DNA of 64,000 bases from contig NZ_JAMHFY010000001.1 in the NCBI RefSeq assembly GCF_023897015.1, forward strand, positions 310,001-374,000, in the 5' to 3' direction. The notes under the pieces are model-generated. The model did no database searches. It saw nothing but the letters and a program-made list of their open reading frames with translations, and had not been told where the DNA came from. The stretch is from Desulfosporosinus nitroreducens (GTDB lineage Bacteria; Bacillota; Desulfitobacteriia; Desulfitobacteriales; Desulfitobacteriaceae). The translations under genes were made by a program, and so were the position numbers. Of this stretch, positions 51,149 to 54,106 are shown in pieces (within the stretch, counting starts at the first letter, position 1; every line of letters begins with the position of its first letter).

Positions 51149-51616
51149 TTAAATTGTTAAAAAGTTTCCGTAAATAATCCATCCCAATCCCAAGATTATT
51201 CGCAAAAATGTTGGCGCGAAACTCCATAATATCTGTTTTTTGCTACCTTTAGGAATAATACCTGTGCCGAATACTAAGGCCCATAGGATTATAGCAATAA
51301 CTGGCGTTGCAAAGGCCCCGAGTAAAACCAAGCTGGTCAATCCGCCTATAAGCCCGCCTACAATCTTGCTTTTATTAGCTTTTTTTCCAATAGTAAGAAG
51401 GAGCAGGATTCCAACGGTTCCACCTGCTAACATGGGAATTTCCCATTGCCAAAACATTGTTGCGTCATGGAAAAGATAGTTTATCCCACTTAAAGCGACT
51501 GTTGCCGCAACAGTTCCCAAAATCCCTCCAAAAAAAATCATTCCTGCGCAAAGAAGAAGTATTCCCTCGAGTAATACCAGTTGAATGAATTCCAAGAAAC
51601 CTCTCTCCCCCAACAC
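51149..51616 (-). CDS. Four-helix membrane protein of unknown function
   Basis: The protein is about 150 residues with four hydrophobic segments (IQLVLLEGILLLCAGMIFF, MLAGGTVGILLLLTI, GLTSLVLLGAFATPVIAIIL and IILGLGWIIYGNFL). It resembles small DUF456-like membrane proteins, but I cannot fix the family. The start codon is uncertain: GTG at 51616, or TTG at 51595, which has AGAGAGG upstream. It lies downstream of the spore microprotein locus. Confidence 0.6.
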   Translation of the reverse strand: MLGERGFLEFIQLVLLEGILLLCAGMIFFGGILGTVAATVALSGINYLFHDATMFWQWEIPMLAGGTVGILLLLTIGKKANKSKIVGGLIGGLTSLVLLGAFATPVIAIILWALVFGTGIIPKGSKKQILWSFAPTFLRIILGLGWIIYGNFLTI

Positions 51617-51719
51617 TATGTTCGTAGTAGTATATCCCAGTAATAACCAATCTAATCTTAAGGGAAATCTAGCTCTCTAAGGGTAAACTGCAATCACGAC
51701 ATCAATTACCATTATTTGG

Positions 51720-51748
51720 AACATTAATTCCATTATCTTCATATTCTG
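51720..51748 (+). promoter_or_regulatory. Sigma-K-like promoter before the Trp-rich peptide
   Basis: AACA (51720-51723), 16 nt and CATATTCTG (51740-51748) resemble the sigma-K pattern mACm-N16-CATAnnnTA, with one mismatch at the end. The start codon is about 70 nt downstream. Confidence 0.45.
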
Positions 51749-51820
51749 TATTATGGTAGATCTAATTATAGCTGCTAGCCTACAGTAAATGAAAACGATA
51801 ATTTGAAGGAGGTTTTAACT

Positions 51821-51913
51821 ATGTGGTGGGGACGTTGGGGTTTTCCTTGGTTTGGCTTCGGCCCTTGGTTTGGTTTCGGTCCTTGGTGGGGTTTTCGCCG
51901 TTGGTGGTGGTAA
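51821..51913 (+). CDS. Tryptophan-rich 30-residue microprotein
   Basis: The frame from ATG at 51821 to TAA at 51911-51913 encodes 30 residues, ten of them Trp, with Gly, Phe, Pro and Arg making up the rest. It begins MWWGRWGFPW and ends RRWWW; the repeated middle unit is FGFGPW. GAAGGAGG lies 9 nt before the ATG. It stands opposite the spore microprotein array and may be a spore coat or crust peptide. It has no clear match to a named family that I know. The reading frame, site and possible sigma-K-like promoter support it as real. Confidence 0.7.
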   Translation: MWWGRWGFPWFGFGPWFGFGPWWGFRRWWW

Positions 51914-51998
51914 GCCTTAATGGGTAAACCTTTTTCATTTATGTAATCGTATGCTTATCATTTTACTTTTCGTCCATTCTTGACCGTTCTTAATCTAC

Positions 51999-52034
51999 TA
52001 AATGGCGCTGCCCCCAATATGCAGGGCCATTTAG
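51999..52034 (+). terminator. Terminator-like hairpin after the Trp-rich gene
   Basis: The stem CTAAATGGC / GCCATTTAG with an inner GCTGC/GCAG is followed by CTATTTTA. It lies about 90 nt past the microprotein stop. Confidence 0.55.
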
Positions 52035-52168: not shown

Positions 52169-52267
52169 TTAGAAAATAACTCCCAAGGCGATCAGAATCA
52201 AAACGGCAATAGCTATAATTCCAGCACCAGTGCCAACACCAACACCAGCTGCACCATATCCGTACAT
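52169..52267 (-). CDS. YjcZ-like spore microprotein, type A, copy 3
   Basis: This 32-residue peptide, MYGYGAAGVGVG... followed by a hydrophobic IIAIAVLILIALGVIF, has a Gly-rich head and a single helix, as in the YjcZ/tiny transmembrane spore family. GGAGGTG lies before the ATG. It is the last gene of the six-gene array and lacks the CCPPV insert of the other type A copies. Confidence 0.75.
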   Translation of the reverse strand: MYGYGAAGVGVGTGAGIIAIAVLILIALGVIF

Positions 52268-52322
52268 GAACTCACCTCCAAATGCGAACTATTGAATGCC
52301 ACCATTTTCAAAATCTTTTTTA

Positions 52323-52415
52323 TTAGAATACGATACCCATAGCAATGAGCAAAAGAATGATAACAACCACGATGGCAATTCCTGCGCCTACTCCAGCTCC
52401 ACCTGCTCCAAACAT
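52323..52415 (-). CDS. YjcZ-like spore microprotein, type B, copy 3
   Basis: The 30-residue peptide starts MFGAGGAGVGAG and ends AIVVVIILLLIAMGIVF. The protein is identical in sequence to the type B peptide at 52641-52733, although the DNA differs at many synonymous sites. A GGGGGGT site precedes the ATG. Confidence 0.75.
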   Translation of the reverse strand: MFGAGGAGVGAGIAIVVVIILLLIAMGIVF

Positions 52416-52455
52416 ACTTATGACCCCCCTTATAAATTAGTTAGATTTTGATCGT

Positions 52456-52596
52456 CTAGAATATTACGCCTAAGGCAATTAAAATCAAAATTGCGATAGC
52501 GATAATGCCTGCTCCGACTGCACTGCCTACTGGGGCAACTGGTGGGCAACAAGCTCCTGCATACCCTGCGCCTGCTCCGTATCCATATCCGTACAT
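52456..52596 (-). CDS. YjcZ-like spore microprotein, type A, copy 2
   Basis: The 46-residue peptide has MYGYGYGAGAGYAG, then CCPPVAPVGSAVGAG and a C-terminal helix IIAIAILILIALGVIF. The two cysteines and the Pro-rich insert distinguish it from type A copy 3. GGGGGAAA lies upstream of the ATG. Confidence 0.75.
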   Translation of the reverse strand: MYGYGYGAGAGYAGACCPPVAPVGSAVGAGIIAIAILILIALGVIF

Positions 52597-52640
52597 AATA
52601 TTTCCCCCTTATATCTATAAATTAAATCTAGCGAATTTGT

Positions 52641-52733
52641 TTAAAAAACGATCCCCATTGCGATAAGCAAAAGGATGATTACTACGACTATGGCAATTCC
52701 TGCGCCAACTCCGGCTCCACCTGCTCCAAACAT
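52641..52733 (-). CDS. YjcZ-like spore microprotein, type B, copy 2
   Basis: The 30-residue peptide, MFGAGGAGVGAG with a C-terminal IVVVIILLLIAMGIVF helix, is the same protein as at 52323-52415. GGGAGGT precedes the ATG. The two genes differ by silent changes, which points to selection on the protein. Confidence 0.75.
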   Translation of the reverse strand: MFGAGGAGVGAGIAIVVVIILLLIAMGIVF

Positions 52734-52772
52734 ACTAATGACCTCCCTTAAAATCTACTTAGACTTAAATTT

Positions 52773-52922
52773 TTAGAATATAACGCCTAAGGCAATTAAG
52801 ATCAGAATTGCGATAGCGATGATGCCTGCTCCGATTGCACTCCCTACTGGTGCAACTGGGGCAACTGGCGGGCAACAAGCTCCTGCATACCCTGCCCCTG
52901 CTCCGTATCCATATCCGTACAT
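52773..52922 (-). CDS. YjcZ-like spore microprotein, type A, copy 1
   Basis: The 49-residue peptide is like copy 2 but with an extra APV in the Pro-rich part (CCPPVAPVAPVGSAIGAG) before the same C-terminal IIAIAILILIALGVIF helix. AAGGGGGAAA lies before the ATG. It follows the first type B gene by 47 nt. Confidence 0.75.
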   Translation of the reverse strand: MYGYGYGAGAGYAGACCPPVAPVAPVGSAIGAGIIAIAILILIALGVIF

Positions 52923-52969
52923 AATATTTCCCCCTTATATCTTAATTTCTAGAAGTTTAGGACCCTTTT

Positions 52970-53095
52970 TTAAAAAACGATACCCATAGCGATTAACAAA
53001 AGAATGATTACTACAACTACAGCAATCCCAGGTAGGAAATTAGGTCCACATCCAACACCTTCGACACCTTCAACTGCACCAATACCATATGCCAT
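52970..53095 (-). CDS. YjcZ-like spore microprotein, type B, copy 1
   Basis: The 41-residue peptide from ATG at 53095 has MAYGIGAVEGVEGVGCGPNF and ends AVVVVIILLLIAMGIVF. AAGGAGGT lies upstream. The head differs from the other type B copies and has one cysteine, but the tail is the type B helix. It is the first gene of the array and follows a good sigma-K-type promoter. A longer frame upstream has no start support. Confidence 0.75.
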   Translation of the reverse strand: MAYGIGAVEGVEGVGCGPNFLPGIAVVVVIILLLIAMGIVF

Positions 53096-53144: not shown

Positions 53145-53173
53145 TAAGATATGTAAAAAGATCCTAAAGTGTT
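53145..53173 (-). promoter_or_regulatory. Sigma-K-type promoter of the microprotein array
   Basis: On the minus strand AACA (53170-53173), exactly 16 nt and CATATCTTA (53145-53153) match the sigma-K consensus mACm-N16-CATAnnnTA. The ATG of the first array gene is about 50 nt downstream. sigK itself is at 5448. Confidence 0.6.
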
Positions 53174-53205
53174 AATATCTTCCATTAAAATAGTTTTGAA
53201 TATAT

Positions 53206-53257: not shown

Positions 53258-54106
53258 TTAATAGTTTGGTTCTTGAAGTCGTCGGGCAAATTCGTTCAGT
53301 CCCATATTAGCGAAACAATAAACACGTTGCAAATGCCATTCATCGAGATTAAGGTCAGCCCAACCCCGATCTGTAGTAAAAGCCATTAAATACCCTGTTT
53401 GTTTTACCGCTTGTGCCACATCACCGTTCAAATCTCCGTAAGGATAGGCAAAAAATCCCACAGACTTTCCGAGACCCTTTTCAAGTGTTTCCTTAGAATC
53501 CATTAGCTCGTTTAACACTATGGTCATATCCACTTGAGACAAATATGGGTGATTAACTGTATGCCCTTCAATTTCCCATCCATTGGCTGATAATTCTCTA
53601 AGCTGGGGCCATGACATAAATCCCTCTCCGCCAATATAGCTGGACACCATGAAGACTGCAGCAGTAAATCCATACTTTTTTACGATAGGGAAAGCAGTCG
53701 CATAATTATCTTCGTAACCGTCATCAAATGTAATCACAATTGGTTTTTGGGGGAGAACCCCACCCTTATAAAATGCCTGGTATAACTGATCCAATGTAAC
53801 GCTCTCGTACCCCTTTTCCTGCAAGTAGGCCATTTGCGCCTCAAACTGGTCAGGAGGCATTCTCACTTCATTTCCCTTCTCTAGCATGACCGAATGATAG
53901 TATAAGACAGGCACTACTTGTGCATTTTGGTTGCTTGGTGATTTTAACGTGTTTAGTAATTTGCCCGATGTCGTGCTTGGAGTGCTTGAATCTAATTGAG
54001 TCTGTGAAATAGAGCTTGAGGGCTTCTCCCCACCACAACCACTGATTCCAATGACAAGCACTTGTAAAAAGACAATTAAAAATATCTTTCCAATAACTTT
54101 TTTCAC
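53258..54106 (-). CDS. Polysaccharide deacetylase lipoprotein (NodB domain)
   Basis: The 282-residue protein starts with a lipobox (IGISGCGG), then a Ser-rich linker and a NodB homology domain: PIVITFDDGYEDNYATAFPI with the metal Asp pair, IEGHTVNHPYLSQ with the metal His, and FFAYPYGDLNGDV. It probably removes acetyl groups from extracellular polysaccharide or peptidoglycan. GTG start with AAAGGAG upstream. It lies next to the spore array, so a role in the spore wall is possible but not shown. Confidence 0.9.
   Translation of the reverse strand: MKKVIGKIFLIVFLQVLVIGISGCGGEKPSSSISQTQLDSSTPSTTSGKLLNTLKSPSNQNAQVVPVLYYHSVMLEKGNEVRMPPDQFEAQMAYLQEKGYESVTLDQLYQAFYKGGVLPQKPIVITFDDGYEDNYATAFPIVKKYGFTAAVFMVSSYIGGEGFMSWPQLRELSANGWEIEGHTVNHPYLSQVDMTIVLNELMDSKETLEKGLGKSVGFFAYPYGDLNGDVAQAVKQTGYLMAFTTDRGWADLNLDEWHLQRVYCFANMGLNEFARRLQEPNY

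Follow-up and report, generated by a model that had tools for sequence, protein, structure and literature searches.

SpoVM of Bacillus subtilis is a peptide of 26 residues that is made in the mother cell and sits at the forespore surface. Indolicidin and tritrpticin are animal defence peptides: short, cationic, rich in Trp, Pro, and Arg, and devoid of acidic residues. The yjcZ gene of B. subtilis belongs to the sigma-K regulon (PMC517825). We describe here a Trp-rich peptide gene of Desulfosporosinus nitroreducens, located in a window of 64,000 nucleotides (the whole stretch of DNA that was analysed) from an assembly of 5.46 Mb, which has some features in common with each of these systems.

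Like SpoVM, the peptide is very short and probably made in the mother cell, and it may also be directed to the outer forespore membrane. It differs from SpoVM in showing neither sequence resemblance nor a family-model match (Pfam, NCBIfam), in its late, sigma-K-type promoter and in the lack of the gene from several clades; a SpoVM-like amphipathic helix is not expected, because Trp, Gly, and Pro dominate the sequence. With the YjcZ-type sporulation microproteins, it shares a tiny size, a sigma-K-type promoter, and a position adjoining an array of YjcZ-like layout. It has, however, no hydrophobic segment of the YjcZ type, and neither the peptide nor the tested array members match the YjcZ model. 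The composition is broadly that of indolicidin and tritrpticin, with much more Trp, Gly, and Phe, whereas the source is bacterial: a bare ORF, intracellular and preceded by a sporulation promoter. To our knowledge, a comparable composition is known nowhere else.

Sequence and composition of the peptide

The locus comprises the following features:

51149–51598, minus strand: mem155, divergent gene for a small membrane protein
51718–51748, plus strand: sigma-K-type promoter, GGAAC-N17-CATATTCTG
51806–51812, plus strand: ribosome binding site, AAGGAGG
51821–51913, plus strand: Trp-rich peptide ORF, 30 residues, conserved in frame
51998–52034, plus strand: terminator-like hairpin, CTAAATGGCGCTGC...GCAGGGCCATTTAG
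52169–53095, minus strand: six Gly-rich microprotein genes in an array convergent to the peptide gene, each product with a single hydrophobic segment
52169–52267, 52323–52415, 52456–52596, 52641–52733, 52773–52922, and 52970–53095, minus strand: ORFs of the array
53145–53176, minus strand: sigma-K-type promoter of the array, TTAAC...CATATCTTA

Translation of the ORF gives MWWGRWGFPWFGFGPWFGFGPWWGFRRWWW, with 10 Trp, 7 Gly, 6 Phe, 3 Pro, 3 Arg, and no Lys and a mass of about 4.05 kDa, in agreement with an earlier note on this DNA that had described a 30-residue peptide with ten tryptophans. Nowhere else in the window does a stop-terminated stretch of 25 residues or more reach 25% Trp, and no such stretch occurs in any of 40 simulated windows. 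The W-Gly-Phe-Pro repeat proposed in the same note holds in part: a core of FPW / FGF / PW and both ends are constant, whereas the repeat itself is loose and the length of the middle part changes. A signal sequence is absent, and structure prediction yields no confident fold (pLDDT 59). In the 24 sequences tested, the family carries no acidic residues, has a net charge of +3 to +5 and a content of 42–54% aromatic residues, and gives strongly negative summed interfacial values, from −16.5 to −23.9.

Ten Trp residues per about 4 kDa confer very strong absorption near 280 nm, and a screen that protects the spore from ultraviolet light or radicals could be imagined. The sequence supports such a role only by its Trp content, and the constant Arg, Pro, and Gly positions are left unexplained; moreover, sediments and the subsurface are the main habitats of these anaerobes. 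We consider a screening function quite improbable.

The peptide gene is under purifying selection

Across 24 sequences, pS is 0.55 as compared with a pN of 0.083, and the entropy at the third codon position is 0.80 versus 0.21 and 0.17 at the other positions; no excess of synonymous change is seen in the other two frames of the same alignment. Since Trp has a single codon, this synonymous signal rests on the Gly, Phe, Pro, and Arg codons. In G007, the peptide is identical, yet one third of the synonymous sites differ. Judging by these codon patterns, the gene is protein-coding and under strong purifying selection. A chance ORF was ruled out by the conservation and the codon-level selection, and we regard 51821–51913 as a real gene with near certainty.

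The length of the family members ranges from 27 to 36 residues and changes by whole codons, in the middle of the peptide, while the start, the FP / GF / PW core, the RR pair, and the Trp-rich end are retained. Such a Gly/Phe/Trp/Arg composition, kept despite drift in length, is expected if composition matters more than fold. Together with the lack of a predicted fold, it would suit a structural coat material, that is, an aromatic, Arg- and Gly-rich low-complexity peptide that condenses by cation–π and stacking interactions and fills or glues an outer spore layer without being membrane-bound. Inside Desulfosporosinus, however, both ends of the peptide are nearly letter-for-letter constant, which suggests specific contacts, and we view this role as possible but unlikely.

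Each gene copy looks like a stand-alone unit

The ribosome binding site lies directly upstream of the ORF and is nearly invariant in the relatives, in line with its earlier description as strong. The only other well-conserved upstream block is GGAAC-N17-CATANTCT[AG]TATTAG, and the sequence flanking it is not conserved. The pattern AAC-N17-CATANNCT[AG] is found in 20 of the 23 readable loci (the 24th locus reads N upstream), whereas 300 shuffled sets gave 3.1 such loci on average and 8 at most. The candidate late-sporulation promoter of the earlier note is thus real as a conserved motif. It has the −35 AC, the −10 CATANNNTA, and the spacing used to define sigma-K promoters, and the −10 of the window copy ends in TG instead of TA. 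The sigma-K consensus has AC at −35, whereas that of sigma-E has ATA (PMC3789822). The promoter is also recognisable in the other genera, the weakest examples being those of G063 and G064, in which the −10 alone is clear. These features make it highly probable that the peptide gene is a late mother-cell gene of the sigma-K type.

The ORF is followed by the terminator-like hairpin, whose T tract is weak in the window copy; a simple consensus scan of the window reported no terminator. The hairpin sequence varies between loci with compensatory changes: six of the nine consensus pairs are altered on both sides with pairing kept in at least one of 15 sequences, these rows having been picked by eye, a choice that favours pairing. 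With its promoter, ribosome binding site, ORF, and hairpin, each gene copy looks like a stand-alone unit.

The neighbourhood is conserved and includes a convergent array

The gene order is recJ, a CDF cation transporter gene, mem155, the peptide gene, the convergent array, a polysaccharide deacetylase gene, secF, and secD; nearly all Desulfosporosinus loci with flanks available share it. The mem155 gene is found with the peptide gene throughout the family and serves as a synteny marker. Its product matches no Pfam or NCBIfam family, and the gene adjoins recJ in most genera of the family. The deacetylase gene (53258–54106, minus strand), between the array and secF, is kept in most relatives and missing in G002 and G024; its product might act on the spore envelope.

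This order bears on two further explanations. A hairpin that follows grouped Trp codons recalls a trpL-like leader peptide that senses Trp supply by attenuation. However, no same-strand gene lies downstream: wherever the flank is available, the adjacent genes run convergently. Conservation also extends to Gly, Phe, Pro, and Arg, and the promoter is of the sporulation type, so that we judge a leader peptide extremely unlikely. A small ORF with conserved ends could also encode a RiPP precursor with modified Trp residues, Trp being a common cross-link site in such peptides. Against this, there is no modifying enzyme, leader protease, or transporter for it among recJ, the CDF gene, mem155, the array, the deacetylase gene, and secDF, and a RiPP precursor appears very improbable.

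The array that faces the peptide gene, as the earlier note had seen, consists of small hydrophobic ORFs on the opposite strand, and the link between the two is conserved across species. Its members alternate between two types, whose hydrophobic C-termini, IIAIAILILIALGVIF or IAIVVVIILLLIAMGIVF, hardly vary and whose N-terminal parts, rich in Gly, Tyr, Cys, and Pro, are variable; the copy number differs between species. The first array gene, recognised in 21 loci, has a promoter of its own, of the form TTAACa-N16/17-CATATCTTA, in every one of them, except for a second, internal copy at one locus. In layout, the array resembles the small product of B. subtilis yjcZ. This is a likeness rather than membership, because the tested array members match no Pfam or NCBIfam model, including those of YjcZ. 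The array is retained where the peptide gene has been lost; array and peptide are therefore not mutually dependent, and any partnership between them would be optional.

Distribution and losses within the family

The peptide gene was found in 21 of 30 Desulfosporosinus genomes by protein and profile searches, including the loci of D. lacus DSM 15449, Desulfosporosinus sp. HMP52, and Desulfosporosinus sp. SRJS8. When mem155 was used as bait in other genera of the family, Trp-rich ORFs were found at the same place, several of which had been missed by the profile and were recovered by synteny:

G033, next to mem155: MWGWWGFPWWGFGFGFPWFGWFGWRRRWWW
G035, next to mem155: MWWGRGFWGFPFFPGFWGFPFWGWRRWWW
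G067, next to mem155: MWGRWFWGWPWWGFGWGWPWWGWRRWWW, with 14 Trp in 28 residues
G036, next to mem155: MHWWPWGFFRWGFPFWGFPFWGWRRRWWW

Homologues from other genera are also present in G034, G062, G063, and G064. In total, 29 sequences represent six genera, Desulfosporosinus and five more that were found mainly by synteny. The earlier note had made its proposal depend on the frame being conserved in relatives; it is conserved across Desulfosporosinus and beyond, and the proposal is not refuted on this count.

Seven Desulfosporosinus genomes have the neighbours and the array at this locus but no peptide gene. None lies between mem155 and the array in G010 either, and the genera of G031/G066 and G032/G061 lack it. 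Presence and absence mapped on a mem155 tree require about five changes, on a tree of a short protein in which several branches are long or weak. The simplest reading of this pattern is that the gene is old in the family and was lost several times; to judge from the absences, it is dispensable in some species.

In G025 (L048 = G025:C179, L114 = G025:C163), the peptide gene and a sigma-K-type promoter are found apart from the usual neighbours, and the mem155 locus has no peptide gene. Because this assembly is 9% contaminated, the placement may reflect either relocation or a foreign contig.

Outside the family, no convincing member was detected in 398 genomes sampled across the phylum, in a search that was limited to 20 scored candidates in each genome and did not recover the known member of G033; distant members could thus have escaped it. 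Profile searches of the order, class, and phylum samples gave poor matches only, and the best match outside the family (G268) is not a Trp-rich small ORF.

Comparison with known families

The peptide has no match in Pfam, NCBIfam, PHROGs, or PADLOC, and the earlier impression that it belongs to no named family is borne out. A plasmid, viral, or defence-system origin was rejected for lack of matches, as was a known protein family after the Pfam, NCBIfam, and PDB searches. Among the papers searched, none mentions the peptide motifs and none joins tryptophan-rich with spore coat, small protein, and sporulation. Judged from family models, the PDB, plasmid and viral matches, and the literature, the peptide is rated a new family within a known kind, the small late sporulation proteins.

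Composition alone would suggest a membrane-active antimicrobial or lytic peptide, which either aids lysis of the mother cell or is freed on lysis against competitors: the peptide is short, cationic, rich in Trp, Pro, and Arg, and free of acidic residues. In this it resembles known Trp-rich antimicrobial peptides (PMC6017362), and a late mother-cell promoter would suit release on lysis. Yet no export signal, processing gene, or immunity gene is present in the conserved neighbourhood, and the sequence is very constant within the genus, whereas many antimicrobials are under arms-race selection. A search of PDB chains of at least 20 residues, up to an E value of 10, also gave no match; peptides of the size of indolicidin fall below that length. 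We therefore see this role as a minor possibility.

A putative late mother-cell microprotein of the spore envelope

The earlier note had offered a coat peptide, a UV shield, or an antimicrobial as possible roles; the promoter and the neighbours favour a role in the mother cell and the spore envelope. The peptide gene would be transcribed in the mother cell by RNA polymerase carrying sigma-K, presumably at the same stage as the convergent array, when the coat and outer layers are forming. The product would stay in the mother-cell cytoplasm. As it has no signal sequence and no acidic residues, is positively charged and highly aromatic, and has negative interfacial values, it would be expected to bind, through interfacial contacts of Trp and Arg, to the anionic outer forespore membrane or to the assembling coat. 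It would thereby end up in the spore envelope, with the hydrophobic microproteins of the array as natural candidates for partners. We give this proposal, that the peptide binds the anionic forespore membrane or coat via Trp and Arg and joins the envelope, an even chance of being right. It is consistent with the conservation and codon-level selection, the conserved promoter with its −35 AC, the like promoter of the array, the place of yjcZ in the sigma-K regulon, the composition and charge, and the stable gene order; the independence of the array from the peptide, the lack of a confident fold, and the unclear −35 in G063 and G064 speak against it.

A bolder version of the envelope role sees in the peptide a new kind of spore material: a Trp/Arg/Gly low-complexity microprotein that would form condensates with the array proteins on the outer forespore membrane and so give the spore an aromatic layer of its own. 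We find this rather doubtful. In one genus, Trp makes up half of the residues.

Trp ranks as a rule with the scarcest and most expensive residues, yet members of this peptide family have retained 8–14 Trp within 27–36 residues across the span of a bacterial family. Its recovery illustrates how synteny finds tiny low-complexity genes that profile searches miss. If the peptide is a component of the spore envelope, it would be an example from nature of a minimal peptide or material that binds membranes through Trp and Arg, and it would open a way to study the spore surface of sulfate- and organohalide-reducing anaerobes, which has received little attention.
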